Shown here in pieces: positions 2,660 to 60,731 of a stretch of DNA of 64,000 nt. The stretch is from an uncultured Prevotella sp. (GTDB lineage: Bacteria > Bacteroidota > Bacteroidia > Bacteroidales > Bacteroidaceae): assembly GCA_944320355.1 (NCBI GenBank), contig CALUHC010000035.1, positions 223,680 to 287,679 of the forward strand, given 5' to 3'. A program made the position numbers and the translations under genes. Below the pieces are notes generated by a model, which worked only from the letters and a program-made list of their open reading frames with translations, did not search any database and had not been told where the DNA came from. The first letter of the stretch is position 1. Each line of letters opens with the position of its first letter.

Positions 2660-2760
2660 GCTTGTGCCGTTTCGCCATGCGATATGTGCCGTTTTGGATT
2701 GCGAAACGGCACATATCGCAGTATGGAACGCGCCGTTTCGCAATCCAAAACGGCGCGTTT
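2660..2760. repeat. 22-nt-pitch array, 5 units (family B)
   Basis: Five 13-mers start at 2660, 2682, 2704, 2726 and 2748, exactly 22 nt apart. The last two (GAACGCGCCGTTT, AAACGGCGCGTTT) pair as a hairpin; units 2 and 3 pair likewise around TGTGCC/GGCACA. On the minus strand the flanking sequence contains a GTTGATGTTCAA element similar to the flank of other copies. Confidence 0.85.
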
Positions 2761-2895
2761 CATAACACATTGAACATCAACCTGTTATCCCAACCGGCGC
2801 GTCCGCCGGCCTTTAACATAAAAATGTTAACGCCAAATCGGCCATCATGGGCACAGGCCTTTCGGCCTCATGCATGGCAATTAATGCCGCCTTTT

Positions 2896-2927
2896 CTTGC
2901 ACCGCACGATAATTTGCGCTACCTTTG
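2896..2927 (+). promoter_or_regulatory. cysS promoter with conserved start region
   Basis: The -7 box TACCTTTG lies at 2920-2927, and a CTTG at 2896-2899 with a 20-bp gap fits a weak -33 box. The DNA just after the -7 box (CATAGGATAAGCCGCAC) matches the start region of the promoters at 8308 and 46110. Confidence 0.7.
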
Positions 2928-3072
2928 CATAGGATAAGCCGCACCATGGAAGCAGGAAGGGACGGGCGCCGGCAGTCTGAGAACCAGCCGCAGTGCCTGC
3001 GCCACATTTTGCCCTGCGCCGCGCTGCGCCTTCCTTGCGCTTGGGAATCACAACAAAAACAGAGGATATATC

Positions 3073-4563
3073 ATGCAACAGAGACTCGTAATCTACAATA
3101 CACTGACGCGCTCGAAGCAGCCCTTCGAGCCGCTCCACGCGCCAAACGTGGGGATGTACGTATGCGGACCCACCGTATACGGCGACCCGCACCTGGGCCA
3201 CGCCCGCCCGGCCATCACGTTCGACATCGTGTTCCGCTACCTGCGCCACCTCGGCTACAAGGTGCGCTACGTGAGAAACATCACCGACGTTGGCCACCTG
3301 GAGCACGACGCCGACGAGGGCGACGACAAGATAGCGAAGAAAGCCCGCCTCGAACAGCTTGAGCCGATGGAGGTGGCGCAGTACTACACCAACCGCTACC
3401 ACGACGCCATGCGCGCCCTGGGCGTGCTGCCGCCCAGCATAGAGCCACACGCCAGCGGCCACATCATAGAGCAGGAGGAGCTGGTGCGCCAGATAATGGA
3501 CAACGGATACGCCTACGAGAGCAACGGCAGTGTGTACTTCGACGTGGAGAAATACAACCGTGACCACCGCTACGGCATACTCTCCGGGCGCAACCTCGAC
3601 GACGTGAAGGACGCCAGCCGCGAGCTCGACGGCGTGGGCGAGAAGCGCCACCAGGTGGACTTCGCACTGTGGAAGAAGGCCCAGCCGGAGCACATCATGC
3701 GCTGGCCAAGCCCCTGGAGCGACGGATTCCCGGGCTGGCACTGCGAGTGCACCGCCATGGGGAGGAAGTACCTCGGGGCGCATTTCGACATACACGGCGG
3801 CGGCATGGACCTCGTCTTCCCCCACCACGAGTGCGAGATAGCGCAGGCGGTGGCATCGCAGGGCGACCAGATGGTGCGCTACTGGATGCACAACAACATG
3901 ATAACCATCAACGGGCAGAAGATGGGCAAGAGCCTCGGCAACTTCATAACGCTCGAGCAGTTCTTCTCCGGCAACCACCCGAGCCTCCAGAAGGCATACT
4001 CGCCGATGACCATCCGCTTCTTCATCCTCAGCGCCCACTACCGCGGCACGGTCGACTTCTCAAACGAAGCCCTGCTGGCCAGCGAGAAAGGACTGGAGCG
4101 GCTGATGAACGGCATCAGCGACTTGGAGCGCGTGCCGGTGTCAGACAAGTGCGACACGGAGACCGAAGAGTTTGTCAACAGCCTGCGCCAGCGGTGCTAC
4201 GACGCCATGAACGACGACTTCGCCACGCCGCAGGTGATAAGCTATCTCTTCGAGGCCTGCGGCACAATCAACAAGCTCCTCGACCACAAGGCAGCCATCT
4301 GCGCCGCCTGCCTCGACGAGCTGAAGGCCACGATGCGCCTCTTCGCCTTCGACCTGCTGGGCCTCCGCGAGGAGAAAGGCGGCTCCGACGGCGCGCGCGA
4401 GGAAGCCTACGGCAAGGTTGTTGACATGGTGCTCGACCTCCGCGCCAAGGCCAAGGCCGCCAAGGACTGGGCCACCAGCGACCGCATACGCGACGAGCTG
4501 GCCGCCGCCGGCTTCGAGGTGAAGGACACCAAGGACGGCGTCACATGGCGGTTGAACAAGTAA
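3073..4563 (+). CDS. cysS: Cysteine--tRNA ligase
   Basis: This 496-residue class I aminoacyl-tRNA synthetase charges tRNA-Cys in the cytoplasm. The HIGH motif is HLGH (residues 40-43), directly after the zinc/cysteine-binding C31 in YVCGPTVYG. The remaining zinc ligands are visible as C224 in GWHCEC and H251/C254 in HHECE. The KMSKS loop reads KMGKS at 283-287. The C-terminal third is the helical anticodon-binding part. The length is standard, and the start at [11 protein letters not shown] agrees with the family. It has its own promoter about 145 bp upstream and is followed by a 60-bp-arm hairpin. Confidence 0.97.
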
Positions 4564-4593
4564 GCCATTTCCAAACCCAGGATTATACATAGC

Positions 4594-4755
4594 AGTAGTC
4601 AAGGAGCCTTGTATTAGGAGTTAAGGAGTCAGAAGGAGTAAAGGAGTTAAGACAATAGCTTTTGCGGGCGGTTTGTTCCATACGGCAAAGCATACGTCTT
4701 AACTCCTTTACTCCTTCTGACTCCTTAACTCCTAATACAAGACTCCTTGACTACT
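4594..4755. repeat. Long hairpin, 60-bp arms (family A)
   Basis: The left arm 4594-4653 and right arm 4696-4755 are reverse complements over 59 of 60 positions. They enclose a 42-nt loop beginning AATAGCTTTTGCGGG and ending GGCAAAGCATAC. The arms are built from GGAGTTAAGGAGT-type words. The loop is 37/42 identical to the loop of the hairpin at 59102-59221. The element fills the gap between the convergent cysS and capA-like genes, but has no terminal U-run of a classical terminator. Confidence 0.95.
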
Positions 4756-4777: not shown

Positions 4778-5833
4778 CTAAAACGCCACCTCCGGCACAC
4801 ATTTCCTTATCACAACAGGCACGGTGTCGGCCAGCAGAGTGTCGGCCGTCACTCTAAGCCGGGCCACAAGCCCACGGCTATTCAGCGGGCGGCCAAGGTC
4901 GAAGATGAAGTTGCCGAGACTGTAGAATACAGGGCGGTGGCGGTATGTCTCCACGCTCTGGGCCGTGTGCGAGTGATGCCCCACAACGGCATCCGCGCCT
5001 GCGTCTATCAGCCGCCGCGCCTCATGGCGCTGCCCGACAGTGGGCTTGAGCGTGTGCTCCACGCCCCAGTGCAGGCACACTATGACACAGGCCGCGGGCT
5101 GCCGGCGGCGTATGGCGCGCACGGAGTCGCACAGACGGTCAACGGAAGCCTCGCAGACCGACGGGCGGTCGGGCATATACACATAGTTCTCAGACATCAC
5201 CCGCAGCGAGGCGAGCACCCATACGGGGCGCGGTCCGCCGCCAATCATCACAGGCCGGCAGGCCTCTGCGTCGTTGCGCCCGTAGCCAATGGCCGTCATT
5301 CCGGCCTCCGTTATATTATAATATGCGTCAGACAGCCCCTCGCGGCCTTGGTCAATGCTGTGGTTGTTGGCCATGTTGAGGTGGGTGATGCCGTGGCGGC
5401 GCAGCGCGGGAAGCACCGCCGGGTCGGCCCGGAAAACGAACCTCTTGTTGAGAGGGGCATCAACCGATGTCGCCGGACACTCAAGGTTGGCCACCACAGC
5501 GTCGGCCGTGGCAAACAGAGAGTCGACCGAAGGCGAGAACAAACGGTCAGGGCCGGCATACCTTATCAGCCTGCCCACATCGCGCCCGAGCATCACGTCG
5601 CCAGTGAAAAGGATGGTGAGGGTGTCTTTGGGAGGGCAGGGAGCAATGGAAGAGCCGGGGGTGCTGAGAGCTATGGGAGCAATGAGAGGGCAGGGAGTTG
5701 CTGGAGAGCTGAGCCAAGATGGCGGCCCTTTCACTTCAGCTCTCCCGCAACTCCCTGCCCTCTCATTGCTCCCAGCTCCAATAAAAGCTCCTGCCAGGAC
5801 TGCCGCAAGCAGCAAAACAATCAGCCCGCGCAT
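4778..5833 (-). CDS. CapA family protein with hairpin DNA in its linker
   Basis: This 351-residue protein is of the CapA/PgsA metallophosphatase-like family, associated with polyglutamate and capsule synthesis. After an N-terminal hydrophobic anchor (residues 3-20), the domain from about residue 72 shows the family motifs GDVMLGRDV, NLECP, NMANNHSIDQG, LHWGVEH, GHHSH and YSLGNFIFD. Residues of about 21-67, between anchor and domain, are a low-complexity stretch rich in Pro, Ser and Ala. It is encoded by an inverted repeat (arms 5675-5712 and 5736-5773, 37/38 complementary), so a repeat element appears to have been accepted in frame. The gene starts 4 nt after the DUF3160 gene stop and is probably cotranscribed with it. 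The function in this host is not determinable. Confidence 0.85.
   Translation of the reverse strand: MRGLIVLLLAAVLAGAFIGAGSNERAGSCGRAEVKGPPSWLSSPATPCPLIAPIALSTPGSSIAPCPPKDTLTILFTGDVMLGRDVGRLIRYAGPDRLFSPSVDSLFATADAVVANLECPATSVDAPLNKRFVFRADPAVLPALRRHGITHLNMANNHSIDQGREGLSDAYYNITEAGMTAIGYGRNDAEACRPVMIGGGPRPVWVLASLRVMSENYVYMPDRPSVCEASVDRLCDSVRAIRRRQPAACVIVCLHWGVEHTLKPTVGQRHEARRLIDAGADAVVGHHSHTAQSVETYRHRPVFYSLGNFIFDLGRPLNSRGLVARLRVTADTLLADTVPVVIRKCVPEVAF
5675..5773. repeat. Hairpin element inside the capA-like gene
   Basis: Two 38-bp arms (5675-5712, 5736-5773) match with one mismatch around a 23-nt loop, wholly inside coding sequence. The word content (GGGAGTTG, GGGAGCAATG) resembles the intergenic long-hairpin family. 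No stop codon arises in the reading frame used. Confidence 0.9.
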
Positions 5834-8472: not shown

Positions 8473-10320
8473 ATGAAACAACGCTTTGTCTGGCTCATCA
8501 AGCTGTACATAATGTATATAGCCATCTTCGTGACGCAGAAGGTGGCGTTCTTCTATATCGACAGGCCGGCCGACGCGCACCACACGCTGTCCGACTGCCT
8601 CGCTTCGGTGGGCCACGGGCTGCTGCTCGACGTGCCGGTGGCGGGCTATCTCATCGCCCTGCCGCTGCTCGCCACTATGGCCACGGCGTGGTGGCCGCGC
8701 GCGGTGAGGCTCAGGGCGTGGGCCACGGCCTACCTTGCCGTGGTGGCCCTGGCGGCTTCGGTCATGTTCATGGTAGACCTCTCGCTCTATCCTTTCTGGC
8801 ATTTCAAGCTCGACGCCACCATATTCTATTACATGGACTCGCCGCGCGACGCGCTGGCCAGCGTCTCCGCGGGCTACGTCGCGCTGCGCCTGGCCGTCAT
8901 AGCGGCCTATACGGCACTGCTGCTGTGGTGCCTGCGCGCCGTCACCCCGCGCCTGCTGCGCCCCATAGGGCGGCTGAGGCACAGGCTGGCCTATACGCTC
9001 ACGGCCATAGTGGTCACCGTCCCGCTGGTCATCTCCATCCGCGGCGGGCTGGGAGAGAGCACGGCCAACATAGGCAAGGTGTACTTCTCTGACGACGAAT
9101 ACCTGAACCACGCGGCCATAAACCCGTGCTTCAGCCTGCTGGCATCGCTCGGCAAGGCCGAGAACTACGGCGAGGAGTTCAACTACTTCGCCGAGGACGA
9201 GCGCAAGAGCCTGTTCGAGGGCCTCTACCCGCAGACCGAGACGGACACCGTGAGCCTGCTCAACACCACGCGCCCCAACGTGCTCGTCATCCTCATGGAG
9301 GGCTTCGGCGGCCAGTTTGTCGAGGCCGTCAGCGGGCGCAAGCACATAGCCCCGTGCTACAACAGGCTGGCGCGGGAGGGCATCATCTTCACAAACTGCT
9401 ACTCCAACAGCTTCCGCACCGACCGCGGCACGGTGTCGTCGCTCAGCGGCTACCCCAGCTTCCCCACGCAGTCGGTGATGAAGCTGCCCATGAAGAGCCG
9501 CACGCTGCCATGCATTGCCGCCTCGCTCAACGCCGAGGGCTACCACAGCAGCTTCCTCTACGGCGGCGACATAAACTTCACTAATATGCAGAGCTACCTG
9601 CGCACGGGCGGCTATGCCTCGATAACGAGCGACGTAGACTTCAGCGCCTCGGAGCGCAAGGACAACCCCTGGGGCGTCAACGACGACGTGACCTTCAGCC
9701 GGCTGCTCGGCATGATAGCCGCCGAGAAGGCCGAGCCGTGGCACATCTGCTTCCTCACGCTGAGCAGCCACGAGCCTTGGCAGGTGCCCTACAGCCGCCT
9801 GGACGAGAAGATTCCCAACGCCTTCGCCTACACCGACCACTGCCTCGGGGCCTTCGTTGACAGCCTGAGGCGCACCCCGGCGTGGCAGAACCTGCTCATA
9901 GTCTGCCTGCCCGACCACGGATACCAGTACCCCGGCAACATAACCAGCGAGCAGCACCACCACAACACCATGCTCTGGACGGGCGGCGCGGTGAGGCAGC
10001 ACCGCGTGGTGACCACGCTGATGAACCAGAGCGACATGGCCGCCACGCTGCTCGGGCAGCTGCGCATACCCCACACGGAATACACGTTCAGCCGCGACGT
10101 GCTCAGCACCGGCTACACCTACCCCTTCGCTTTCTTCACATCGAAGGAGAACATTGGCTTCGCCGACAGCACCGGCCACACCGTCTACGACATCATTGGC
10201 GACAAGGTGGCCGAAGACTCCACCGCCGCCGGCCACGACCCCGCCGCCGCAACGGCCGCGCGGGTGAGCCGCAGCAAGGCCATACTGCAATCGTTCTACG
10301 ACGACCTCGGCCGCCGCTGA
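8473..10320 (+). CDS. LTA synthase family (sulfatase-fold) membrane enzyme
   Basis: This 615-residue protein has five predicted transmembrane helices in the first 200 residues and a large extracytoplasmic alkaline-phosphatase-superfamily domain after about residue 265. Metal-site and nucleophile motifs are visible: NVLVILMEGFGG, then FRTDRGT with the likely Thr nucleophile, later LSSHEPW and PDHGYQYPGN. The family transfers phospho-alcohol groups (glycerol phosphate or phosphoethanolamine) from lipids to envelope glycans. Gram-negative Bacteroidales lack lipoteichoic acid, so a phosphoglycerol or phosphoethanolamine transferase acting on surface polysaccharide or lipid is the better guess. 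A paralogue lies at 38934-40919. Confidence 0.85.
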   Translation: MKQRFVWLIKLYIMYIAIFVTQKVAFFYIDRPADAHHTLSDCLASVGHGLLLDVPVAGYLIALPLLATMATAWWPRAVRLRAWATAYLAVVALAASVMFMVDLSLYPFWHFKLDATIFYYMDSPRDALASVSAGYVALRLAVIAAYTALLLWCLRAVTPRLLRPIGRLRHRLAYTLTAIVVTVPLVISIRGGLGESTANIGKVYFSDDEYLNHAAINPCFSLLASLGKAENYGEEFNYFAEDERKSLFEGLYPQTETDTVSLLNTTRPNVLVILMEGFGGQFVEAVSGRKHIAPCYNRLAREGIIFTNCYSNSFRTDRGTVSSLSGYPSFPTQSVMKLPMKSRTLPCIAASLNAEGYHSSFLYGGDINFTNMQSYLRTGGYASITSDVDFSASERKDNPWGVNDDVTFSRLLGMIAAEKAEPWHICFLTLSSHEPWQVPYSRLDEKIPNAFAYTDHCLGAFVDSLRRTPAWQNLLIVCLPDHGYQYPGNITSEQHHHNTMLWTGGAVRQHRVVTTLMNQSDMAATLLGQLRIPHTEYTFSRDVLSTGYTYPFAFFTSKENIGFADSTGHTVYDIIGDKVAEDSTAAGHDPAAATAARVSRSKAILQSFYDDLGRR

Positions 10321-10567
10321 CACCGCGCCTGCCGCCCCGACAGCGCGCCAAAACGTTAACAAACGCTAACGAAAAGCCGGGGCAGGCACATGACTTTTTC
10401 TGAAACATTGACAAACGGAAATCGCAAAACAGAGCGTGAAACGGCCTCCGGCAACGCCGGGAGACCGTTTTTTTTGCGCCCGCCGAAGCCCGCCGCAACG
10501 CGAAACGGGCCGAAACGCCACCACCCCAACGCCTCGCAACAGCCGGAACGCACCCGAACGCAACGCG

Positions 10568-10646
10568 AAACGGCACATACAGGATGGCAAAACGGCACGT
10601 TTCAGAAAGCAAAACGGCACGTCTTGCAGCCCAAAACGGCACATTT
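10568..10646. repeat. 22-nt-pitch array, 4 units (family B)
   Basis: The 13-mers start at 10568, 10590, 10612 and 10634, all in the same direction (AAACGGCAC...). This copy is unusual because no unit is inverted, so only weak hairpins can form; only the exact 22-nt pitch is kept. Confidence 0.85.
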
Positions 10647-11044
10647 CGCAACGCCAAAAGGGGCAAGCAATTGCACAACGCGACCATACCGGCCGGCAAG
10701 CCACTGGCGCACAGCCGTTTGCGATTGCACATCCGTGGCTGCCGTATTTGCGGCCAAGAGCCCTTAATTTTGCGCAGACGGCCTTCTCGCGAGCCTTTCA
10801 CGCCCTCCGCCCCACCCGATGCGCCTCCATCGCTTTCAGTTTTTTTAACCTTAACCGGCCATTAAAGGCCAAAACGATTTCGCTCTGCCAGCGGGCAGAC
10901 TGGCTGCCGACTCTGTGAGACAAGCAACGGGCCACGCCTGGAGAAAGCGGCCGGCAAGACGCCGACAGGGAGACAAGAGAGTTTGGAGAGGCCGACACAA
11001 ACGCGGAAGCAAACGCCGTCGGCCAACATTTTTCCGCACTTTGT

Positions 11045-11076
11045 CTTGCTTTTCACCCCTTTTTGCCGTATCTTTG
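11045..11076 (+). promoter_or_regulatory. Promoter of the TlpA-like gene
   Basis: TATCTTTG at 11069-11076 has CTTG at 11045-11048 as a 3/4 -33 box with a 20-bp gap. The start codon is 75 bp downstream. Confidence 0.65.
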
Positions 11077-11151
11077 TGGAACGGGAGGAGAGGCCAGCGC
11101 GCCCCTGCCAGGCTTCCCGCAACCACAAAGACAAGACAAAGGAGAACGTAA

Positions 11152-12249
11152 ATGAAAGCAAGAAAGACCATTGCCGCGGCACTGCTCGCCGCGGCGGCCG
11201 TGGCGGCCAAAGGCCAGGACACCACCTACACCATAAGCGGCGCAGCCCCGGAGGGCGCGCGCATGATGTACCTCTATGCCGAAGACGACGACAGGGTGGA
11301 CAGCACCGCCGTGGACAACGGCAGATTCGGCTTCAGCGGCAAGCGCCCGCTCAACGCACTGCTCGCACTGACCGACGGGCACTACGGCTGGCACCTGTTC
11401 AACGACGGCACGCCCGTGGACATAGACCTGAGGCGCATGACCGTCAAGGCGTCGCCGCTCAACGGGCGGCTCTTTGCCGCCGGACGCTCGATGGACAGCA
11501 TCGACACGCGCGGAATGGCACTCTACAAGGAGTACGAGCGGGCTGCCGCCGACCGCAGCGAGGCCGGGCGCAAGCGCACGGCGGAGCTGTCAAGACAGTT
11601 CGCCGCGCTTGGCGACTCGATGGCGAGCACAGCCCTGCGCATCATCCACAGCAACAGGGACAACCTCATCCCAGTGTCACTGATCAGCCAGATGGCGCGA
11701 ACCTTCGACTACGAGACGCTGCGCGGCGTGCTCGACCCGGCCGCACCCTACTACAACCACCCCGCCCTGGCACGGGCAAAGGCCCTGCTGGGTGACGCCG
11801 AGCGCACGCTGGGCAACCGCCGACCCGGCCTGCAGTTCACCGACACCACGCTGCCCGACACGGCGGGCGTGGCGCGGCGGCTGAGCGAGTGGTGCGGCAA
11901 GGGCGGCTACGTGCTCATAGACTTCTGGGCCAGCTGGTGCGGCCCGTGCCGCATGGAAATGCCAAACGTGGTGGAAAACTACCGCAAGTATCGCGACAGG
12001 GGGTTCCAAGTGGTGGGCATATCGCTCGACAACAACGCCCGGGCGTGGCGCAAGGCCATAGCCGACATGCAAATGGAGTGGCCACAGCTGAGCGACCTGA
12101 AGGGCTGGCAGTCGGCAGCCGCCACGCTATACAGCGTGCGCTCCATCCCCGCCAGCATACTGATAGACGGCTCGGGAAAGATAGTCGCCACCGACCTGCG
12201 AGGCTCGCGGCTCGGCAAAAAACTGGAGGAAATCTACGGAAAGCAGTGA
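11152..12249 (+). CDS. TlpA-like thiol:disulfide oxidoreductase
   Basis: This 365-residue exported protein has a signal peptide (1-22), an N-terminal DUF4369-like beta domain (about 25-110), a helical linker, and a C-terminal TlpA/AhpC-type thioredoxin domain from about 225. The redox motif WCGPC has cysteines at 263 and 266. A SIPAS cis-proline segment near 332 completes the active site. It most likely reduces disulfides of periplasmic proteins. The domain order is that of Bacteroidales DUF4369-TlpA proteins. It has its own promoter and is followed by a hairpin repeat. Confidence 0.9.
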   Translation: MKARKTIAAALLAAAAVAAKGQDTTYTISGAAPEGARMMYLYAEDDDRVDSTAVDNGRFGFSGKRPLNALLALTDGHYGWHLFNDGTPVDIDLRRMTVKASPLNGRLFAAGRSMDSIDTRGMALYKEYERAAADRSEAGRKRTAELSRQFAALGDSMASTALRIIHSNRDNLIPVSLISQMARTFDYETLRGVLDPAAPYYNHPALARAKALLGDAERTLGNRRPGLQFTDTTLPDTAGVARRLSEWCGKGGYVLIDFWASWCGPCRMEMPNVVENYRKYRDRGFQVVGISLDNNARAWRKAIADMQMEWPQLSDLKGWQSAAATLYSVRSIPASILIDGSGKIVATDLRGSRLGKKLEEIYGKQ

Positions 12250-12279
12250 AACAGGAAGCAAAAAGACAAGAAGGTAAGA

Positions 12280-12441
12280 ATGAAGAGTTAGGAATTAAGA
12301 GTGAAGAGGTTAAGAAGTAAGAGTGAAGAGGTAAGAAGTAAGAGTTAAGAAAAATAGCTTTGACAACGGTCGGCACACTCCATCTGGCTTAAGGCTGGCA
12401 AAGCTATTTTTCTTAACTCTTAATTCTTACCTCTTAACTCA
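12280..12441. repeat. Hairpin repeat between TlpA and EFR1 genes (family A)
   Basis: A perfect 24-bp inverted repeat (12339-12362 with 12399-12422) contains AAAATAGCTTTG, the loop-border word of this family. It is flanked by more GTTAAGAGGTAAGAA words that extend the pairing loosely. The right arm covers the last codons and the stop codon of the EFR1 gene (LRGKN-stop), so the element defines the end of that protein. Confidence 0.85.
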
Positions 12442-13235
12442 AAGCCTTCCGGGAAAAAGGTTTCAGGCTCACGCCGGGCCGAGAACATGGCAGTGAACTT
12501 GGCCTTCACCTCATCGTAGAGCGCACCGGAGTACCTGCGGGCGTGCGACGGGCAGGCCACTATGCAGCGGCCGCACGAGATGCAGGCCGCACCGTCGGTG
12601 AGGTAAGGGCGGTCGGCGGGTATGGCGCCAGCCGGGCACTGCCCCGCGCACACCCCGCAACGGCTGCACTCATCCACAGAGGCGGCGGGATGCAGCGGCA
12701 GGCCGCCTGGCTCCTTGTACGGCCTGTGGCCCTTAACGGCCGGCGGCAGCACGCCCCCGAAACCGCGAGCAGACGCGATGAGCCTCGCGCAACCGTCGCC
12801 GAAGGCCGCCGCGCGGTTCATGTCATCACCGTCGGGGCGGCCTGCGCCCATGTCCGGAAAGATGGAGTGGCGGCCAATGAAGGCACCCGCCGCCACGACG
12901 CTGAAGCCACCGTCGCCCAGGATGTCGCAGAGTTCGAGCAGCGCGTCGTCATAGTCGCGGTTGCCATACACGCACACCGCCACCGCAGGCACGCCGTCGC
13001 CTCGCACGACCGAGAGCCGCTCGCGCGCCAACGCCGGCACCCGGCCGGCATAGACGGGCACCGCCGCAACGAGCACATCGCCACCGCCTACAGTCAGCGG
13101 GCCGCAACCGGCGCTGCCGTTGGTTATGTCGTGCTCGGCAACACTGCCGCCAAGCCGCGCCGACACCTGCCGGGCTATGGCGCGGGTAGTGTAAGTAGCA
13201 CTGAAAAAGGCTACGTGGACATTTCTTATTTCCAT
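12420..13235 (-). CDS. EFR1-type ferredoxin (flavodoxin fold plus 2[4Fe-4S])
   Basis: Starting at 13235 (MEIRNVHVAFFSATYTT) gives 271 residues. The upstream in-frame extension is rejected because it runs through untypical sequence. The N-terminal half is flavodoxin-like, with an FMN phosphate loop region ATYTTRAIARQV. The C-terminal third carries two 4Fe-4S motifs, CSRCGVCAGQCP and CISCGRCIVACP. EFR1 proteins are small electron carriers; partners are unknown. The C-terminal tail LRGKN is encoded by the arm of a repeat element. Confidence 0.88.
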   Translation of the reverse strand: MEIRNVHVAFFSATYTTRAIARQVSARLGGSVAEHDITNGSAGCGPLTVGGGDVLVAAVPVYAGRVPALARERLSVVRGDGVPAVAVCVYGNRDYDDALLELCDILGDGGFSVVAAGAFIGRHSIFPDMGAGRPDGDDMNRAAAFGDGCARLIASARGFGGVLPPAVKGHRPYKEPGGLPLHPAASVDECSRCGVCAGQCPAGAIPADRPYLTDGAACISCGRCIVACPSHARRYSGALYDEVKAKFTAMFSARREPETFFPEGFELRGKN

Positions 13236-13572
13236 ATATATGTTTGTTGGTTTGCTATTCAACACACGTTCCGCGGCAGTGCCGCCGCCCCGCGACGGCG
13301 ACGGCCCCAAAGAGCCGCCGGCGCGCCGGAATGGCATGGCCGGCGCACGCCGATACGCCATTACAAAGGTAGTGATTTGTTGGAAAAAACAAATCCGACA
13401 GGCAGACAAAATCGCCCGAAAAGCCATCCAGATATGCACAAATGGCATATAAGTGTGCATTTTCAGACGGTTTTTGCCCAAATTATTTGCATAAGTGGAT
13501 AAAAATTACTTACTTTGCAGCCGAATTTTTTGAGATTGGAAATCAATATTAACATTTTAAAAGTTATTAATC
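13236..13572. other. Intergenic region before acpP
   Basis: The divergent gap of 337 bp contains only the acpP promoter (13486-13517) and a GC-rich self-complementary stretch near 13315-13360. No gene or repeat of the dispersed families is seen. Confidence 0.55.
13486..13517 (+). promoter_or_regulatory. acpP promoter
   Basis: TTTG at 13486-13489 and TTACTTTG at 13510-13517 have a 20-bp gap. The -7 box differs from TAnnTTTG only at the second base. The start codon is 55 bp downstream. Confidence 0.65.
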
Positions 13573-13809
13573 ATGTCAGAAATTGAATCTAAAGTAAAGG
13601 CAATCATCGTGGACAAACTTGGTGTTGACGAGGCAGAAGTAAAGCCGGAGGCAAGTTTCACTAACGATCTTGGTGCAGACTCTTTGGACACCGTTGAGCT
13701 TATCATGGAGTTCGAGAAGGAGTTCGGCGTTTCCATCCCCGACGACAAGGCCGAGAAGATTACCACCGTTGGTGATGCCGTTGCCTACATTGAGGAGAAC
13801 GCAAAATAA
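13573..13809 (+). CDS. acpP: Acyl carrier protein
   Basis: This 78-residue acidic helical protein carries growing acyl chains in type II fatty acid synthesis. The phosphopantetheine site is S37 within GADSLDTVE. Length and sequence are standard. It lies 116 bp upstream of fabF, so acpP, fabF and rnc form the widely conserved gene order and probably one transcript from the promoter at 13486. Confidence 0.98.
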
Positions 13810-13925
13810 ATTTCTTACACCAATCCGGGGAATTGGGAAATGGACAGCCACGGTTGCCGACGCTCCACTTGGGCCGGCAGGGCGATGGTTTCCATTTCCG
13901 AATTCTCCTTTTTCAATTTTAAAAC

Positions 13926-15194
13926 ATGGAACTGAAAAGAGTAGTTGTAACGGGACTCGGGGCTGTTACCCCTGTCGGCAACACTCCCGAGGAGACCTGG
14001 AACAACATGGTCAACGGAGTGAGCGGCGCGGCTCCCATTACATTATTTGACGCTTCCAAGTTCAAGACCCAGTTTGCCTGCGAGGTGAAGAACCTCAATG
14101 TCAACGAATACATAGACCGCAAGGAGGCCCGCAAGATGGATCGCTACACCCAGCTGGCCTTCATCTCTGCCATACAGGCAGTGAAAGACAGCGGCATGGA
14201 CTTGGAGAGCGTGGACAAGAACCGCGTCGGGGTGATCTTCGGCGTGGGCATCGGAGGAATAAAGACCTTCGAAGACGAGGTTGGGTACTACGGGGCGCAC
14301 AAGGAAGACGGCCCGAAGTTCAACCCGTTCTTCATCCCCAAGATGATAGCCGACATAGCCGCAGGCCAGATTTCGATACACTTCGGATTCCACGGGCCCA
14401 ACTATGCCACCACATCGGCGTGCGCATCGTCGACCAACGCGCTTGCCGACGCATTCAACCAGCTGCGCCTCGGCAAGGCAGATGTAATCGTTGCCGGAGG
14501 CGCCGAGGCCGCCATCTGCGCCTGCGGCGTTGGCGGATTCAACGCCATGCACGCCCTCTCCACACGCAATGACGACCCCGAGCACGCCTCGCGCCCCTTC
14601 AGCGCCAGCCGCGACGGCTTCATAATGGGCGAGGGAGCAGGCTGCCTCATACTTGAGGAGCTGGAACACGCCAAGGCGCGCGGAGCCAAGATTTACGCCG
14701 AGATGGTGGGCGAGGGAGCGAGCGCCGACGCATACCACATCACGGCATCCCACCCCGAGGGGCTCGGAGCCAAGCTCGTGATGGAGAACGCGCTGGCCGA
14801 CGCCGGGCTGAGACCTGAGGACATAGACTACATCAACGTGCACGGCACATCCACACCCGTGGGCGACGTGTCGGAGGCCAAGGCCATAAAGCAGGTGTTC
14901 GGCGACGCCGCCTACAAGCTGAACATCAGCTCCACCAAGTCGATGACGGGCCACCTGCTCGGCGCGGCAGGCGCCGTGGAGGCCATGGCGAGCGTGCTCG
15001 CAATAAAGAACGACATCGTTCCCCCGACCATCAACCACGAGGAGGGCGACAACGACCCCGACATTGACTACGAGCTTAACTTCACTTTCAACAAAGCACA
15101 GAAGCGCGTGGTGCGCGCCGCGATGAGCAACACGTTCGGGTTCGGCGGACACAACGCCTGCGTGATATTCAAGAAGTATGACGCTGAGCAATAA
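13926..15194 (+). CDS. fabF: Beta-ketoacyl-ACP synthase II
   Basis: This 422-residue condensing enzyme elongates acyl-ACP with malonyl-ACP. The catalytic triad is visible: C166 in TTSACASST, H306 in VHGTST, and H343 in TGHLLGAAGA. The length is normal for FabF. It sits between acpP and rnc and overlaps rnc by 17 bp, which suggests translational coupling. Confidence 0.97.
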   Translation: MELKRVVVTGLGAVTPVGNTPEETWNNMVNGVSGAAPITLFDASKFKTQFACEVKNLNVNEYIDRKEARKMDRYTQLAFISAIQAVKDSGMDLESVDKNRVGVIFGVGIGGIKTFEDEVGYYGAHKEDGPKFNPFFIPKMIADIAAGQISIHFGFHGPNYATTSACASSTNALADAFNQLRLGKADVIVAGGAEAAICACGVGGFNAMHALSTRNDDPEHASRPFSASRDGFIMGEGAGCLILEELEHAKARGAKIYAEMVGEGASADAYHITASHPEGLGAKLVMENALADAGLRPEDIDYINVHGTSTPVGDVSEAKAIKQVFGDAAYKLNISSTKSMTGHLLGAAGAVEAMASVLAIKNDIVPPTINHEEGDNDPDIDYELNFTFNKAQKRVVRAAMSNTFGFGGHNACVIFKKYDAEQ

Positions 15195-16236
15195 CTTGAT
15201 AGACAGAATAAAGCTCCCTTTCCGCAAGGACAAGGAGCTTTTTTCTTCGCTCTACGCCATATTGGGCTTCTATCCGCGCCACATTGAGTACTACAAGCTC
15301 GCGCTCATGCACAAGAGCGTGTCCAAGCGCAACGCCAAGGGCAAGCCGCTGAACAACGAGAGGCTTGAGTTCCTGGGCGACGCGATACTCGACGCCGTGG
15401 TGGGAGACATCGTCTACCGCCACTTCGAGGGCAAGCGCGAGGGCTTCCTGACCAACACGAGGAGCAAGCTCGTGCAGCGCGAGACGCTGAACCGCCTCGC
15501 CCAGGAGATGGGCATCGACCAGCTCATACTCACGTCGACGCGCTCCTGCTCGCACAACAGCTACATGGGGGGCAACGCCTTCGAGGCTCTCGTGGGCGCG
15601 ATATACCTCGACCGGGGCTACAACTCGTGCATGAGGTTCATGCAGAGGCGCATACTGTCGCAACTGATAAATATAGACAAGGTGGCATACAAGGAGGTGA
15701 ACTTCAAGAGCAAGCTCATAGAGTGGAGCCAGAAGAACCGCGTCAAGCTCGAATTCGCCCTCGCGAGCCAGGGCAAGGAGGAGAAAGGCAGCCCCGTGTT
15801 CGTGTACAAGGCCGTGCTTGAGGGCCTTGAGGCCGGCACAGGCAAGGGTTACTCAAAGAAAGAAAGCCAGCAGCTGGCGTCGAAGGAGGCACTGCAGAAA
15901 CTCCGACGCGAGCCGCAATTCATCGACGCCGTGTTCGCCGCCAAGGGCAACAGGACAAAGATGGAGGAGGAACCGGTGTCGAACGTGCCGTCCACAGAGG
16001 TGAAGGACGACTTCATAATACCCCGGAACACCGCGCCGCAACCAAGGCGCGAGACCCGCGCCAAGGAGAACTGGCGGGAGGACATGAAGCAACCCGAGAC
16101 GAAGAAACAGGCAGAGGAAAAGGCAGGCGACGACGAGTTCGACCTGTCGGACATCACGGCCACGCCAAAGGAAATGTCGAAAGAAGACATAATAGCCATG
16201 GCCGAGGCAGCCGCATTTGCCGGGAACGAAAGCTGA
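15178..16236 (+). CDS. rnc: Ribonuclease III with a C-terminal extension
   Basis: This 352-residue double-strand-specific endoribonuclease processes rRNA and structured RNAs. The catalytic signature NNERLEFLGDAILDAVV lies near residue 60. The second acidic site is in the GNAFEALVGAIYLDRG segment, and a dsRNA-binding domain follows to about residue 245 (KGYSKKESQQLASKEAL). The last 100 or so residues are a charged, low-complexity tail rich in Lys, Glu and Pro that ordinary RNase III lacks. The start lies inside the end of fabF (17-bp overlap). Confidence 0.95.
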   Translation: MTLSNNLIDRIKLPFRKDKELFSSLYAILGFYPRHIEYYKLALMHKSVSKRNAKGKPLNNERLEFLGDAILDAVVGDIVYRHFEGKREGFLTNTRSKLVQRETLNRLAQEMGIDQLILTSTRSCSHNSYMGGNAFEALVGAIYLDRGYNSCMRFMQRRILSQLINIDKVAYKEVNFKSKLIEWSQKNRVKLEFALASQGKEEKGSPVFVYKAVLEGLEAGTGKGYSKKESQQLASKEALQKLRREPQFIDAVFAAKGNRTKMEEEPVSNVPSTEVKDDFIIPRNTAPQPRRETRAKENWREDMKQPETKKQAEEKAGDDEFDLSDITATPKEMSKEDIIAMAEAAAFAGNES

Positions 16237-16345
16237 CGCGCAGCCGGAACCCAGCCGCCGGAACCAAAACAGGCAGGCTGCGGGACACAGGCGTGAACGC
16301 ACGCACTAACACATTGTAAATCAACGACATACATATTGCTTTGCG

Positions 16346-16424
16346 AAACGTGCCGTTTCGCCCTCTGAAACGACCCGTTTCAGGCGGCGAAACGGCACGT
16401 TTCGCGTCATAAAACGGCACGTTT
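16346..16424. repeat. 22-nt-pitch array, 4 units (family B)
   Basis: Units start at 16346, 16368, 16390 and 16412, with central triplets TGC, ACC, GCA and GCA. The array lies in the gap between the convergent rnc and MATE genes. An ATTGTAAATCAACG flank and TTGC lie immediately before the first unit, as in other copies. Confidence 0.9.
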
Positions 16425-16518
16425 CGCAAAGCCGAACACAAAGCACCGGTTTCCGATGCGCCCCCGCAGACCGGACAACCGCCAGCCGACCACCTCACGC
16501 CGGCATAGCCGTCACCGC

Positions 16519-17892: not shown

Positions 17893-17976
17893 AGCTTCCG
17901 TTATCCTAAAAACCGCGCAAAGTTACTTCCTTTTGCCGAAGCTGGCCGCCTGCCGCGCGTTAAAGATGTTGAAAGA

Positions 17977-18008
17977 AAAACCATCGCCTGCAGGCAGGCG
18001 ATGGTTTT
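17977..18008 (-). terminator. Factor-independent terminator after the GT2 gene
   Basis: A 10-bp GC-rich stem (17981-17990 with 17995-18004) and 4-nt loop is flanked by A4/T4. On the minus strand it is followed by TTTTTCTTTC. It would end the transcript of the deacetylase-GT2 unit before the MATE gene. Confidence 0.75.
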
Positions 18009-18009
18009 C

Positions 18010-18212
18010 GGGAGACAGGAGGCGGGAGACAGGAGTGCAGACGATAGCTTTGTAGTCAGGAGTTCAGTAGTTGCAGGAGTTCAGACAATAGCCTTTTGCG
18101 CAACTCTGCCACATTGCTTCCACTCGCTTTTTACCTTTTTACTTCTTTACCTTTTTACCTTTACTATTGGTTTTTTTACCTTTTCACCATTCTGCTTTTT
18201 TACCTTTAAAGG
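18010..18212. repeat. Repeat words downstream of the GT2 gene
   Basis: GGAGTTCAG and CTTTTTACC words flank two copies of the family A border word (GACGATAGCTTTG near 18033, GACAATAGCCTTTTGC near 18084), without intact arms. The pyrimidine tract continues through the stop of the GT2 gene and encodes its last residues. Confidence 0.55.
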
Positions 18213-19952: not shown

Positions 19953-19987
19953 TGCTATCTCTATTGTAAACCAACTAAATAACGATG

Positions 19988-19995
19988 CAAAGATA
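19988..19995 (-). promoter_or_regulatory. -7 box of the deacetylase-GT2 unit
   Basis: TATCTTTG on the minus strand lies 36 bp upstream of the start at 19952. No clear -33 TTTG is present at 19-21 bp. A TACCTTTG on the opposite strand (20038-20045) likely serves the divergent glf gene. Confidence 0.55.
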
Positions 19996-20150
19996 CAAAA
20001 ATATTTCCTATTGCCGCTTTGTGCCAAAATTTATTAGTACCTTTGTCCGCAATACCCCTGCAACATAAAGCAAAAGCATATCAAAAAAAACGGCCAACGG
20101 CCAATTGGAGGGTTACATTCACACTGCAAACAAAACGATTACGGCAACCT

Positions 20151-21284: not shown

Positions 21285-21592
21285 CGGCGCCGCCGCAGGC
21301 ACCATTGAAGACACTCCGGCACGTATCAAAAAACAAAGCCTGCCGTTTGGCCGTGCAAAACGTGCCGTTTCGCGCTCCAAAACGGCACGTTCCATCGCCC
21401 GAAACGACCCGTTTCAGAGGCCAAAACGGCACGTTTTGCAACCCCACTGATTATCAATGACTTACGGAGGCGGCGCAAGGCGCGCTGCGCCGGTCAAAAA
21501 ACAAAGTTCCCAAAACGCACCCGCACGCCCGGGCCACTGCCGGAAAGGCCGGCCGGCGGCGCGGGCGCAGGCACAAAACCAGCAGAAAGAAA
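21285..21592. other. glf-GT2 intergenic region
   Basis: This 308-bp gap is largely one extended repeat: a family B array (21358-21436), the flank ACTGATTATCAATGACTTAC after it, and CAAAAAACAAAG motifs on both sides (near 21327 and 21494). The same arrangement surrounds the arrays at 29504 and 42856. Confidence 0.7.
21358..21436. repeat. 22-nt-pitch array, 4 units (family B)
   Basis: Units start at 21358, 21380, 21402 and 21424. Units 1 and 2 are mutual inverted repeats (TGC and GCA centres). Confidence 0.9.
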
Positions 21593-25264: not shown

Positions 25265-25365
25265 GTATGTGCCGTTTCAGAACGTGAAACGGCTCGTTTT
25301 GCATTGCAATATGGCCCGTTTCGGGCGATGAAACGTGCCGTTCTGCAAGCCAGAACGGCACATTT
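25265..25365. repeat. 22-nt-pitch array, 5 units (family B)
   Basis: Units start at 25265, 25287, 25309, 25331 and 25353. Units 1, 3 and 5 are degenerate (GTATG, ATATG, GAACG instead of AAACG), but the pitch is exact. Confidence 0.85.
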
Positions 25366-25569
25366 TGCAAACCGTTGAGTATCAGCCGATTATCCAAGAC
25401 ATGGCTTATCGCTGCCTTTAACATAAAAATGTTAACGCCGGCACACGGCATCAAGCGCCAACATGACGCATGGGCTGTCTGCGGATAATCGTGTTTTCTA
25501 ATGTCCTTCAACTTCCCGAGCGGGATGAAACGGAGCGATAGCTCCACTAACCTCTTTAACTTCCAAGAC

Positions 25570-29364: not shown

Positions 29365-29503
29365 ATTCCACATTATATTATATCTGAAACCCAACCGCAC
29401 ACCCGGCGACGGCACGCACCACCACCCTTGTTTTTTGATTTCCGGCGCGCGGCCCCACCGGCGCAACGGTCTTTGCAACTGCCTGATAATCAACAGCCTT
29501 GCG

Positions 29504-29582
29504 AAACATGCCGTTTTGGCCTCCAAAACGGCACGTTTCATCGCCAGAAACAGGCCGTTTCGCCGTGCAAAACGACCCGTTT
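29504..29582. repeat. 22-nt-pitch array, 4 units (family B)
   Basis: Units start at 29504, 29526, 29548 and 29570. The flank CTGATAATCAACAGCCTTGC precedes unit 1, matching the flank at 49981. CTTGTTTTTTGAT lies about 70 bp upstream, and GGCTTTGATTTTTGG follows unit 4. Confidence 0.9.
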
Positions 29583-33258: not shown

Positions 33259-33337
33259 AAACGTGCCGTTTCGTAGTGCAAAACGACCCGTTTCGGACGA
33301 TGAAACGTGCCGTTTTGGAAGCCAAAACGGCACGTTT
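33259..33337. repeat. 22-nt-pitch array, 4 units (family B)
   Basis: Units start at 33259, 33281, 33303 and 33325. Units 3 and 4 with their spacer form a perfect 16-bp stem and 3-nt loop (AAACGTGCCGTTTTGG, loop AAG). The array lies in the 305-bp gap between the HHH gene and pdxB; the rest of that gap holds the pdxB promoter. Confidence 0.92.
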
Positions 33338-33406
33338 TGCAACATGTTTAGTATCAATAAGTTACGCAACCAGTGCCACACCGTTCCGAAACGCCGTTCG
33401 CAATGG

Positions 33407-41005: not shown

Positions 41006-41019
41006 TTTGCGTTCGGCGG

Positions 41020-41038: not shown

Positions 41039-41052
41039 TGGGAGGGGGCTCC

Positions 41053-42637: not shown

Positions 42638-42855
42638 AGCAGTCGTAAATTTCGTGCAAAAGTAGCCATTTTTCCTGAAATGATGCCTTTATCTCAATAT
42701 TTTTGCATAGTTTTGTCTTGTGATTGAGCCATATTCGGCCTTTTGGCAGGCCACCACCCGCTGCGCGGGCACCGCCTACCGCCACCCGGCCACGATGCCC
42801 GCCGAGAGCCACCTCCGGGCGTATCAAAAGACAAAGGCTGCGGTTTCGGCTTGCA

Positions 42856-42934
42856 AGACGTGCCGTTTCACCGTGCGAAACGTACCGTTTCGCGACGCAA
42901 AACACGCCGTTTCGCAAGCCAAAACGGCACGTTT
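42856..42934. repeat. 22-nt-pitch array, 4 units (family B)
   Basis: Units start at 42856, 42878, 42900 and 42922. A CTGACTGTCAATGAGTTAC flank follows the last unit. Copies of CAAAGG/CTTTGT next to TTTTGA lie on both sides, near 42828 and 43000. Confidence 0.9.
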
Positions 42935-43114
42935 TGTAACCCCGCTGACTGTCAATGAGTTACAGAGGGCGCACGGGGCACTCCGACGTGTGTCAAAAAT
43001 CAAAGGTCAGCTCCGCCAGGGATGCGGTTCCGACCCCGGCACAGCGGCCGCACAGCAGCCGCCATACGCACCGGGTAAAAACGCATACAGACCTTTAAGA
43101 AAAAACAGAAATAT

Positions 43115-43320: not shown

Positions 43321-43336
43321 ATCAATAGAAAAGAAC

Positions 43337-44553: not shown

Positions 44554-44609
44554 GAAGTTAGCGGACAAATGCTTTGCTACCAATCACAAAGCATTTGTCC
44601 GCTAACTTC
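44554..44609. repeat. Perfect 23-bp hairpin (family A)
   Basis: Arms 44554-44576 and 44587-44609 match fully around a 10-nt loop and contain GGACAAATGCTTTG, a variant of the GACAATAGCTTTTGC border word. GAAGTTAAC words flank it. Confidence 0.85.
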
Positions 44610-49899: not shown

Positions 49900-50000
49900 G
49901 CTCAGCACGTGCAGGGAAGCCATTTCAAGGCTGGGCATGACAGTTCCTGAGAATCACTTCCTGCCACATCTGTAACCCACTGATAATCAGTGGGGTTGCG

Positions 50001-50079
50001 AAACGGGTCGTTTTGGCTTCCAAAACGGCCCGTTTTGCATGGTGAAACGTGCCGTTTCAGACGACGAAACGGCACGTTT
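50001..50079. repeat. 22-nt-pitch array, 4 units (family B)
   Basis: Units start at 50001, 50023, 50045 and 50067. Unit 1 and unit 2 form a long hairpin through TTTTGG-CTT-CCAAAA. CTGATAATCAGTGGGGTTGC precedes unit 1. The array lies between the convergent ABC and MFS genes. Confidence 0.92.
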
Positions 50080-52589: not shown

Positions 52590-52689
52590 AAACGGGTCGT
52601 TTTGGAAGCCAAAACGACCCGTTACAATTGCAAATCTAAAGGTTTAGCATGATGAAACGTGCCGTTTCGCAATGCGAAACGGCACGTTT
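52590..52689. repeat. 22-nt-pitch array with one decayed unit (family B)
   Basis: Units start at 52590, 52612, 52655 and 52677. The 43-nt gap holds a degenerate copy (AAATCTAAAGGTTT near 52632). Units 3 and 4 form a perfect 16-bp stem with loop AAT. The array lies between the convergent AraC and pectate lyase genes. Confidence 0.9.
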
Positions 52690-59086: not shown

Positions 59087-59101
59087 CAGGGAATCACATT
59101 T

Positions 59102-59221
59102 CGGTAGTTAAGGAGTCAGAGGGGGTCAAGGAGTCAAGACAATAGCTTTTGCGGGTGATTTGTCTCATTCGGCAAAGCATACGTCTTGACTCCTTGACCC
59201 CCTCTGACTCCTTAACTACCG
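59102..59221. repeat. Perfect 39-bp-arm hairpin (family A)
   Basis: Arms 59102-59140 and 59183-59221 are fully complementary (39/39). The 42-nt loop (59141-59182) differs from the loop at 4654-4695 at only five positions. The arms share their outer half with the 4594 copy but differ at several inner positions, always with a matching change in the other arm. Confidence 0.95.
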
Positions 59222-59630
59222 AAAAATCCCACCTTTCCACTTAATATCATTGTTGATAACCATGTTGAAAACCCTGTTGATAACTGTGTGGACAGCCGTG
59301 CCGGTTATCAACACAACACCCACCGGCCAACCGAAACCATGGATATAAACAGGCTTATCAAGCAGGTTTTATCAAGTTTTCAACAGTTTTCTGGCTGAAA
59401 AAGATATAAACTTATTAATTTTGCACCGTAGTGCGAAATTGTTGATAACTGCGAAATGCGCTCTGTGCCAGCATGAAACTATTAACAACAAGTATTAGCA
59501 ATGAAACACAATACGTTTATATCGGAATATGCAAGGAATAATGTGAAAAGTTTTCAACGTATCAACGGCATATCATACACTACATTTCATTTTTCAAATT
59601 AAAAACAAAAAAGATAATAATATTAATGCG
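59222..59630. other. Putative replication origin or DnaA-box cluster
   Basis: This AT-rich gap contains the 9-mer TGTTGATAA/TTATCAACA four times (59251, 59275, 59305, 59440), the relatives TTATCAAGC (59355) and TTATCAAGT (59369), and TGTGGACAG (59286). They differ from the DnaA consensus TTATCCACA by one or two bases. Very AT-rich stretches (59396-59422, 59581-59625) could be unwinding elements. A -7 box TAATTTTG (59416-59423) may serve nadA. Gene orientation does not diverge here and dnaA is not in the window, so origin status is a hypothesis. Confidence 0.5.
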
Positions 59631-60620
59631 ATGGTGAAAACGGAATGGACAGAAAAGGGATTCATAGACGAGCCGGCGCCCGCCGGCACTGACCTGAAGG
59701 CAGAGATAAGGCGGATGTGCCGCGAGAAGAACGCCATAATACTTGCGCACTACTACACGCGCGGCGAGATACAGGATGTGGCCGACTTCATAGGCGACTC
59801 GCTGGCCTTGGCGCGCAAGGCGGCCGAGACAGACGCGCGGATAATGGTGATGTGCGGTGTACACTTCATGGCCGAGACGTGCAAGCTGCTCAGTCCGGAG
59901 AAGACGGTGCTCGCCCCCGACCTCAACGCGGGATGCTCGCTGGCCGACTCGTGCCGCGCCGGCGACCTCAGGAAGTTCAAAGACGAGCACCCGGGACACA
60001 CCGTGGTGAGCTACGTCAACACCACGGCCGCCGTCAAGGCGCTCACGGACGTGGTGGTGACCAGTGGCAACGCGAAGAAGGTGATAGACCAGTTGCCCGA
60101 GGACGAAAAGATAATATTCGGCCCGGACTACAATCTCGGGGCCTACATAAACAGCGTGACCGGACGCCGGATGCTGCTCTGGAACGGCGGCTGCCACGTG
60201 CATGAGCGGTTCTCGGTGGACGAAATCATGCGCCTGAAGGCTGCCCATCCTGGCGCCGAGGTGCTGGCCCACCTTGAGTGCAAAGGTCCGGTGCTGGCTG
60301 CTGCCGACGTGGTAGGCTCCACGGCAGTGATGCTGAAGCACGTCAAGGAGAGCCCGTGCCGTGAGTTCATCGTGGCCACCGAGGCCGGTATTTTGCACGA
60401 GATGCGCCGTGCCTGCCCCGACAAGACATTCCTGCCCGTGCCTCCAGAGGTGAGCGAGGGCGGCGCAGGGTGCTCGTGCAATGAGTGCGACTACATGAAA
60501 ATGAACACGCTGCTGAAGGTGTACAACACCCTCAAGTATGGCTGGCCGAGCGTGGAGGTAGACCCGGATATTGCCGCCGACGCGCTCAAACCCATAGAGC
60601 GGATGCTCCGCATGAGCTGA
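59631..60620 (+). CDS. nadA: Quinolinate synthase
   Basis: This 329-residue enzyme condenses iminoaspartate with dihydroxyacetone phosphate to make quinolinate for NAD synthesis. The [4Fe-4S] ligands are likely C102 (NAGCSLADSC), C188 (NGGCHVHERF) and one of C281/C283/C286 (CSCNECDYMKMNTL). The length and the AHYYTRGEIQDVADFIGDS segment are typical of NadA. No nadB or nadC is adjacent. A family B array follows. Confidence 0.96.
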   Translation: MVKTEWTEKGFIDEPAPAGTDLKAEIRRMCREKNAIILAHYYTRGEIQDVADFIGDSLALARKAAETDARIMVMCGVHFMAETCKLLSPEKTVLAPDLNAGCSLADSCRAGDLRKFKDEHPGHTVVSYVNTTAAVKALTDVVVTSGNAKKVIDQLPEDEKIIFGPDYNLGAYINSVTGRRMLLWNGGCHVHERFSVDEIMRLKAAHPGAEVLAHLECKGPVLAAADVVGSTAVMLKHVKESPCREFIVATEAGILHEMRRACPDKTFLPVPPEVSEGGAGCSCNECDYMKMNTLLKVYNTLKYGWPSVEVDPDIAADALKPIERMLRMS

Positions 60621-60696
60621 CAGTAGGCCCCAGCCGCTGGCTACTATTTTTGGACTGGCGTCCTGCGACTTGCAGAACAAGGCGTATTGCAAGCCA

Positions 60697-60731
60697 AAAC
60701 GCGCCGTTTCACAGTGCGAAACGGCGCGTTT
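60697..60731. repeat. 22-nt-pitch array, 2 units (family B)
   Basis: Units start at 60697 (AAACGCGCCGTTT) and 60719 (AAACGGCGCGTTT), an inverted pair that makes one hairpin. Flank TTGCAACTCATTGTAAATG follows. Confidence 0.85.

Follow-up and report, generated by a model that had tools for sequence, protein, structure and literature searches.

What are the short palindromes that recur, their starts exactly 22 nucleotides (nt) apart, between the genes of a Prevotella chromosome? The question is raised by a 64,000-nt stretch of DNA ('the window') from an uncultured Prevotella sp. (assembly GCA_944320355.1, contig CALUHC010000035.1, positions 223,680 to 287,679), in which a first-pass annotation recognised eleven intergenic arrays of the 13-mer AAACG-N3-CGTTT and took them either for mobile palindromes, similar to repetitive extragenic palindromic (REP) sequences and bacterial interspersed mosaic elements (BIMEs), or for the binding array of a nucleoid protein. 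In the reading to which we give a little more belief than doubt, they belong to dispersed intergenic elements that resemble BIMEs and the 'reiterative IHF BIMEs' (RIBs) of Escherichia coli, and whose core is predicted to be a helically phased protein-binding array in double-stranded DNA.

Extent of the arrays and constancy of their pitch

Within the window, AAACGNNNCGTTT is matched 38 times with at most one mismatch, where 1.7 matches are expected and 100 shuffles yielded at most 8. All eleven sites were recovered in register, with small corrections that are given with the individual arrays below. The count on which the annotation had let its proposal stand or fall, of the 13-mer and its period genome-wide, left that proposal standing: the source genome (a 2.48 Mb draft of 42 contigs, 80% complete) holds 287 exact adjacent AAACG-N3-CGTTT pairs at the 22-nt pitch, and the reversed control gave none.

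When the gap between neighbouring units was allowed to vary freely from 1 to 30 nt (pitches of 14 to 43), 287 of 288 pairs in the source genome lay at 22, as did 89/89 in P. lacticifex, 110/110 in the relative BRZ_QA (G417) and 584 of 585 in the pooled set of 12 distinct array-bearing genomes (ten from the genus group and two found as named Prevotella sp.), all of these genomes having been chosen through a 22-pitch match. The motif TTTGC-N3-GCAAA, which had been meant as a control, proved to be a real relative in eight other genomes: all 22 of its pairs there, with the gap equally free, lie at pitch 22. A scan that used no motif at all, and asked for four consecutive palindromes at any pitch from 15 to 35, returned 36 arrays in 449 kilobases (kb) of the source genome, every one of them at 22; in 200 kb of P. 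lacticifex, picked around its arrays, it returned 10 at 22 and 2 at 18. (The two arrays at 18 consist of generic palindromes and fall in loci L134-L143.)

The pitch also outlasts the letters. Across 306 in-phase units, 344 substitutions have accumulated over the 10 fixed positions, while 12 off-pitch neighbour pairs were seen and, when these were read, only about three breaks proved to belong to one array alone. A step of 32 nt is found in four arrays, including two named members of the third flank family described below. The counts set an upper limit on the scarcity of breaks, because the in-phase extension rule can miss decayed units that lie off phase. The suggestion that the period is kept where sequence decays is borne out by these numbers, and the pitch belongs to the system as a whole and persists as the letters change.

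Among the matches listed, the named genomes with multi-locus AAACG arrays are Prevotella (P. lacticifex JCM 34664, several uncultured Prevotella sp. and Marseilla massiliensis); matches in unrelated phyla, single loci each, were taken as chance. The exact AAACG-type pattern occurs in 15 of 398 sampled genomes of the genus, and some 204 kb from 12 unselected genus genomes contained no array at any pitch; arrays are therefore not a feature of the genus as a whole. (The totals of 12 genomes above and of 21 below count duplicates once: G210=G416, G300=G420, G104=G414, G343=G422, G199=G425 and G313=G423, which have identical coordinates; G148 and G421, probably also a single genome, were likewise treated as one.) A search of a library of open-access papers found no description of such arrays in Prevotella.

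Anatomy of the unit and the reading of its halves

For a finer description, arrays were defined in the 449 kb of source-genome sequence as two or more in-phase units with up to 4/10 mismatches per unit. This gave 68 arrays of narrow size, 27 having 4 units and 32 having 5 (59/68). Position counts resolve the unit into two interleaved pseudo-palindromes, 11 base pairs (bp) apart: an 'A-centre', AAACG-N3-CGTTT, and a 'B-centre', TTT-YR(S)-N3-(S)YR-AAA. A/T triplets fall at fixed phases and recur every 10-12 bp. The A-centres of the source genome almost always combine one AAACGG half with one AAACG[TAC] half (of 136, only 11 have G on both sides against 38 expected, and 2 on neither against 29 expected). 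In P. lacticifex the A-centre is symmetric, AAACGG-N-CCGTTT, in 101 of 104 cases, and the unit of G135 and G221 is AAACGATACGTTT or its reverse complement AAACGTATCGTTT.

How such centres are read is indicated by the way in which their positions vary together. Among 134 source-genome spacers, the B-centre partner positions (0,8), (1,7) and (2,6), which have a mirror preference in common, are independent (p 0.69, 0.49 and 1.0), with 70, 83 and 52 complementary pairs against 66.8, 78.6 and 52.0 expected, while adjacent positions inside each half covary (p 6e-4, 1e-4, 3e-3 and 8e-8). Because the partners are independent while neighbours within a half covary, the covariation in the source genome is the pattern of two independently read half-sites in double-stranded DNA, not that of a selected helix. 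Compensatory double changes at the A-centres number 14 against 12.0 expected. In the relatives BRZ_QA (53 spacers) and BRZ_LE (35), the partners of the three core pairs do not covary; neighbour dependence in these genomes is weak too (p from 0.02 to 1, the lowest values being 0.02 and 0.04).

Taken together with the pitch, this anatomy suggests a mechanism. A- and B-centres alternating every 11 bp would present 8-10 half-sites on one face of the helix over some 88-110 bp, which a dimeric DNA-binding protein might fill as a short filament; a protein of the IHF/HU family would, in many elements, bend the flank at an adjoining IHF-like dyad; and the complex, placed behind genes, could serve as a local node that organises the chromosome or insulates transcription, as is thought for the RIBs and BIMEs of E. 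coli. More tentatively, and with more doubt than belief on our part, the arrays may be the docking sites, genome-wide, of a putative and so far unrecognised Prevotella chromosome-organising protein, carried about by selfish or recruited repeated elements. The sequence preference of such a protein would shift by lineage (AAACG-N3-CGTTT with a one-sided G, AAACGG-N-CCGTTT in P. lacticifex, AAACGATACGTTT, and TTTGC-N3-GCAAA), with the 11-bp half-step and the 22-bp pitch held fixed.

One locus of the TTTGC type may be described separately. L192 (G352:C148:38001-58000) contains five such arrays, spaced by 3.6-4.0 kb. Each follows a large open frame, and these frames, which stand in a run, look related to one another; four of them begin MKKH... 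and, from the look of their N-termini, possibly encode secreted proteins.

Flanking families, an IHF-like dyad and position among genes

The arrays sit within longer repeated elements. By flank score, 19 of the 68 belong to family I and 12 to family II, and two further flank patterns account for another 12; nine of these last have the look of a single third family, found in both orientations, while the other three group separately with one further array and may represent a fourth. No family fits 23 of the 68, and two lie too near the end of a stretch to be scored. Inspection by eye found a similar flank adjoining differently spelled arrays in the relatives from P. lacticifex and G352. The elements have probably spread by copying, because their flanks are shared; among the sampled copies, the highest-scoring pair has 548 bp in common at 86%. 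In the consensus flanks of family I, direct repeats about 15 nt long, CTTTGWTTTTTGMYAC, seem, also by eye, to bound the elements; repeats of about the same length, GAAATATNTTTACA, were seen in the P. lacticifex elements (L134-L143), their sequence being species-specific.

Families I and II, and many unassigned arrays, carry beside the array a 'dyad D', which may be idealised as GYAAC-N4-TTGAT-N-ATCAA-N4-GTTRC. Of the 53 arrays with a scored D-like core, 38 have the centre of D at a distance of 21 or 22 bp from the first A-centre. It is this fixed distance that counts as evidence for the dyad, because the core score by itself is easily passed, as it was by 500 of 1260 random points. The outer half of dyad D matches the E. 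coli IHF consensus, WATCARNNNNTTR; by that consensus, an IHF-like motif is present at 24/68 arrays against 65/4000 random intergenic points, and at 2/68 in the opposite orientation. The source genome has four matches to HU/IHF-family genes, three of them above cut-off.

None of the 68 arrays lies within a called gene (449 kb, crude calls, coding fraction 0.75), and the observation that no array of the window is inside a gene holds with these independent calls. Their contexts (38 tandem, 12 convergent, 12 divergent and 6 at the ends of stretches) are roughly proportional to intergenic length. Of the 38 arrays in tandem contexts, 33 are closer to the upstream stop (p 4e-6), and elements of families I and II are oriented against the genes in 16 of 20 cases (p 0.01), where the third and fourth flank types give 1 against and 4 with. 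Distances from array to gene are approximate, because one small gene or more was overlooked by the caller: there is an open frame near 24660, on the upstream side of the array at 25265.

Alternative explanations

The alternative that survives best, and that we regard as possible if somewhat doubtful, is a miniature inverted-repeat transposable element (MITE) of the BrickBuilt kind, mobilised in trans by the transposase of an insertion sequence, in which the array would be an internal minisatellite. The repeated flank families agree with it, as does the presence in the source genome of other MITE-like repeats with terminal inverted repeats (three were looked at); BrickBuilt itself, according to PMC4596501, has a leader, a tail and 23-nt tandem repeats. 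Positions, moreover, often differ between species: among 58 anchored spacers compared at about 80% gene identity, 2 were shared, 6 one-sided and 50 without arrays (Fisher p 0.036), in a comparison biased by loci that had been fetched for holding arrays. Looser anchoring gave 4 shared and 7 unshared places (15 rows merged). Examples of shared sites are C4:70453 of the source genome, shared with BRZ_LE, and C6:62759, shared with BRZ_QA; two further shared spacers pair L079 with L120 and L043 with L119. Array-free orthologous spacers exist, with junctions too diverged for a clean empty site or a target duplication to be made out.

Against a MITE, no terminal inverted repeats were recognised by eye in the consensus flanks and no target duplications were seen at the sites inspected; the unit number is near constant (4-5) and the units are palindromic; and the same array stands in at least three unrelated flank families. 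The MITE explanation is in any case compatible with a binding array, because it accounts for spread and not for pitch.

Less likely, and in our view improbable, are hairpins of RNA or single-stranded DNA, acting as stabilisers in 3'-untranslated regions or as bidirectional terminators, with the units paired as one long foldback. Four sequences from three window arrays do fold well beyond dinucleotide shuffles (z -4.1 to -8.1), the arrays lie on the 3' side of genes, and stretches composed of an A-run, a GC-hairpin and a T-run can be seen by eye in the right flanks of families I and II.

Further results, several of which favour hairpins, must be set against the reading of the array as a double-stranded binding site. 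Neighbouring triplets are complementary above expectation (40 against 25.6). The B-centre positions (3,5) of the source genome covary, in a sense contrary to complementarity (28 against 46.5), and in P. lacticifex (76 spacers) the partner positions covary. Compared with unit-permuted versions, the 10 family II arrays fold better on either strand (0.00 of 60 permutations as stable), and the nine remaining 5-unit arrays, which are of the third family or unassigned, fold better on a single strand (0.02, against 0.18 for its complement). Substitutions in family II, concentrated at few positions, favour changes that keep G-U pairing on one of the strands (13 against 35). Of 21 P. lacticifex arrays just 4 have the IHF-like motif, and no candidate binding protein for the array was found. 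Finally, since every genome in the pitch test had been selected by the 22-pitch pattern, genomes with other pitches only would be missed.

The hairpin explanation in turn has to contend with the lack of covariation at the B-centre core pairs and the chance-level compensation at A-centres in the source genome, with the complementary pairs of P. lacticifex, which are below expectation at (1,7) and (2,6) and above it at (0,8) alone (42 against 32), and with a fixed 22-nt pitch, kept through decay and change of motif, for which hairpins have no need. The 13 family I arrays have no fold gain over permutation (0.62 and 0.52) and no G-U asymmetry (20 against 27), and the 23 remaining 4-unit arrays gain slightly (0.12 and 0.10); shared ancestry within groups may contribute to these permutation results. 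The number of terminator-like sites in 10001-30000 is close to that expected (25 against 21.1, standard deviation 4.9). A search of Rfam gave no match at the gathering cut-off, and a permissive one gave 20, all below gathering scores and nearly all of microRNA type on inverted repeats, two of them overlying the array at 2660; a search for transfer RNAs found none.

Classical REP/BIME spread by a REP-associated tyrosine transposase (RAYT, a Y1 transposase) is very improbable. Copy number, extragenic palindromes and mixed orientation would suit it; however, the RAYT domain PF01797 has no match in the source genome, which is 80% complete, or in nine other array-bearing genomes that are 91-99% complete, and no GTAG or CGTC tag stands beside the palindromes, the bases before the 13-mer being mostly S-Y-R by spacer position counts. 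Among 45 distinct genomes, PF01797 is present in 8 of 21 with arrays (once below the family cut-off) and in 15 of 24 without these two array types; these counts do not support an association, nor the idea that a RAYT gene would track the repeat. Thus, of the two halves of the first-pass inference, the likeness to REP and BIME stands as to form (imperfect palindromes in many copies, extragenic, of mixed orientation, in dispersed elements) and lacks support as to the RAYT, whereas the proposed protein-binding array is the better supported, through the exact pitch, the A/T tracts every 10-12 bp and the independent half-sites. A functionless minisatellite born of replication slippage is just as hard to credit: near-identical direct repeats in some arrays of other species (loci from G310, G294 and G215) speak for it, but the units of one array differ in triplet and spacer with phase kept, the unit number is narrow and the same pitch recurs with different sequences.

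Relation to known systems

The preferred reading, a phased binding array within BIME/RIB-like elements, invites comparison with several systems. With the RIBs and BIMEs of E. coli the Prevotella arrays have in common dispersed extragenic palindromic repeats, an adjoining IHF-like site and a place on the 3' side of genes; they differ in their fixed 22-bp multi-unit build, their 11-bp sub-period and an unrelated unit sequence, in that no RAYT was found for them, and in that their IHF site is predicted from sequence. For BIME-1, PMC2817692 describes an interaction of the inter-REP sequence with IHF. The GTAG and CGTC super-families of REPs, as outlined in PMC3733652, are likewise short imperfect palindromes of high copy number and extragenic location, from which the Prevotella arrays are set apart by the missing tag, the failure to find a RAYT and the pitch-locked 4-5 units.

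If the pitch is selected, the arrays would be a very clean natural case in which the sequence turns over and the geometry of the DNA is conserved. With the array as ready-made bait, they would also give direct access to a new protein, of nucleoid or insulator type, in this genus of the gut and rumen. A BIME-like system without an evident RAYT would, in addition, separate the function of such repeats from their mode of spread.

Operator arrays of the ParR/parC type also place half-sites about one helical turn apart, to be filled by a small dimeric DNA-binding protein. There, parC is one centromere on a plasmid and its repeats are direct; the Prevotella arrays are present in hundreds of chromosomal copies and alternate in orientation. 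(No plasmid match to 31000-43000 of the window was found.) Porphyromonas gingivalis, host of the BrickBuilt MITE, is like Prevotella a member of the Bacteroidales. BrickBuilt, too, is intergenic and consists of short (23-nt) tandem repeats between a leader and a tail; PMC4596501 gives 19 copies in strain ATCC 33277, with direct repeats and lengths of 84-991 nt, and terminal inverted repeats that resemble those of resident insertion-sequence elements. The Prevotella arrays differ in their hundreds of unit pairs, which are palindromic, their near-fixed unit number and the absence of recognised terminal inverted repeats.

The arrays of the window

The first array (2660..2760, minus strand) has five in-phase units, the outer ones decayed (its first unit among them), and belongs to a family II element, with dyad D at 2761..2789 (minus; centre 2775, 21 bp from the nearest unit centre) and the outer palindrome of that family, TAACATAAAAATGTTAAC, at 2814..2835 (strand not applicable). 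At 10568..10646 (minus), four units all point one way with the pitch held, as had been described, and the flank type is common to three other arrays (the possible fourth family). Four units at 16346..16424 (plus) have flanks without family assignment. The array first placed at 21358 reaches left to 21314 through two decayed in-phase units, so that four good and two decayed units of a family I element occupy 21314..21436 (minus), with dyad D at 21438..21466 (minus; centre 21452, 22 bp). The family II array at 25265..25365 (minus) has five units, the first of them decayed, and dyad D at 25366..25394 (minus; centre 25380, 21 bp). The four units at 29504..29582 (plus), in a family I element, follow a dyad D at 29474..29502 (plus; centre 29488, 22 bp).

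The four units at 33259..33337 (minus), with flanks that have no family assignment, adjoin a dyad D at 33338..33366 (minus; centre 33352, 21 bp) and include the stem 33303-33337, one of two 16-bp stems with 3-nt loops that had been pointed out and are directly readable in the sequence, the other being 52655-52689. At 42834..42934 (minus), four good units and one decayed unit (at 42834, to the left of the reported start at 42856) form part of a family I element, with dyad D at 42936..42964 (minus; centre 42950, 22 bp); this is the sole window array between divergent genes. Dyad D at 49971..49999 (plus; centre 49985, 22 bp) precedes four units at 50001..50079 (plus), whose flanks score under the family I cut-off. 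The array at 52590..52689 (strand not applicable) is composed of 2+2 units, and its reported break of pitch is real, the step from 52612 to 52655 being 43 nt, one base short of 44. The last, reported at 60697, consists of two good units and a decayed one at 60675 (60675..60731, strand not applicable).

Of 10 proteins scanned that flank arrays in the window, 9 have Pfam matches, and the neighbouring genes (sulfatase, RNase III, MatE transporter, UDP-galactopyranose mutase, glycosyltransferases, an AraC-type regulator and NadA) have no common theme.

Repeats of other kinds are also present. A dispersed MITE-like repeat of about 200 bp (24936-25139), with terminal inverted repeats AATCGGTCATTAGACCG and CGGTCTAATGACCGATT, has copies 89-97% identical at L114:3149-3352, L116:18230-18430 and L112:12924-13121; its nearness to arrays is no test of association, because the queries were the arrays with 500-base flanks. 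A second, of about 210 bp (43112-43322), has 40-nt inverted arms (43157-43196 and 43249-43288) and copies 87-91% identical at L123:6234-6444 and L109:19641-19870, and a third MITE-like repeat, L118:14660-14870, ends in GAAGCTGTTTTGATTTTATCA and TGATAAAATCAAAACAGCTTC. Within the 449 kb, about 22 of the 106 kb of intergenic DNA (array elements included) has two or more other copies. Long, near-perfect inverted repeats unrelated to the arrays lie in the window at 4594-4755, 5674-5774, 12321-12440, 34502-34652, 44554-44609 and 59099-59224; the arms of these six are 23-69 nt long and 87-100% complementary.

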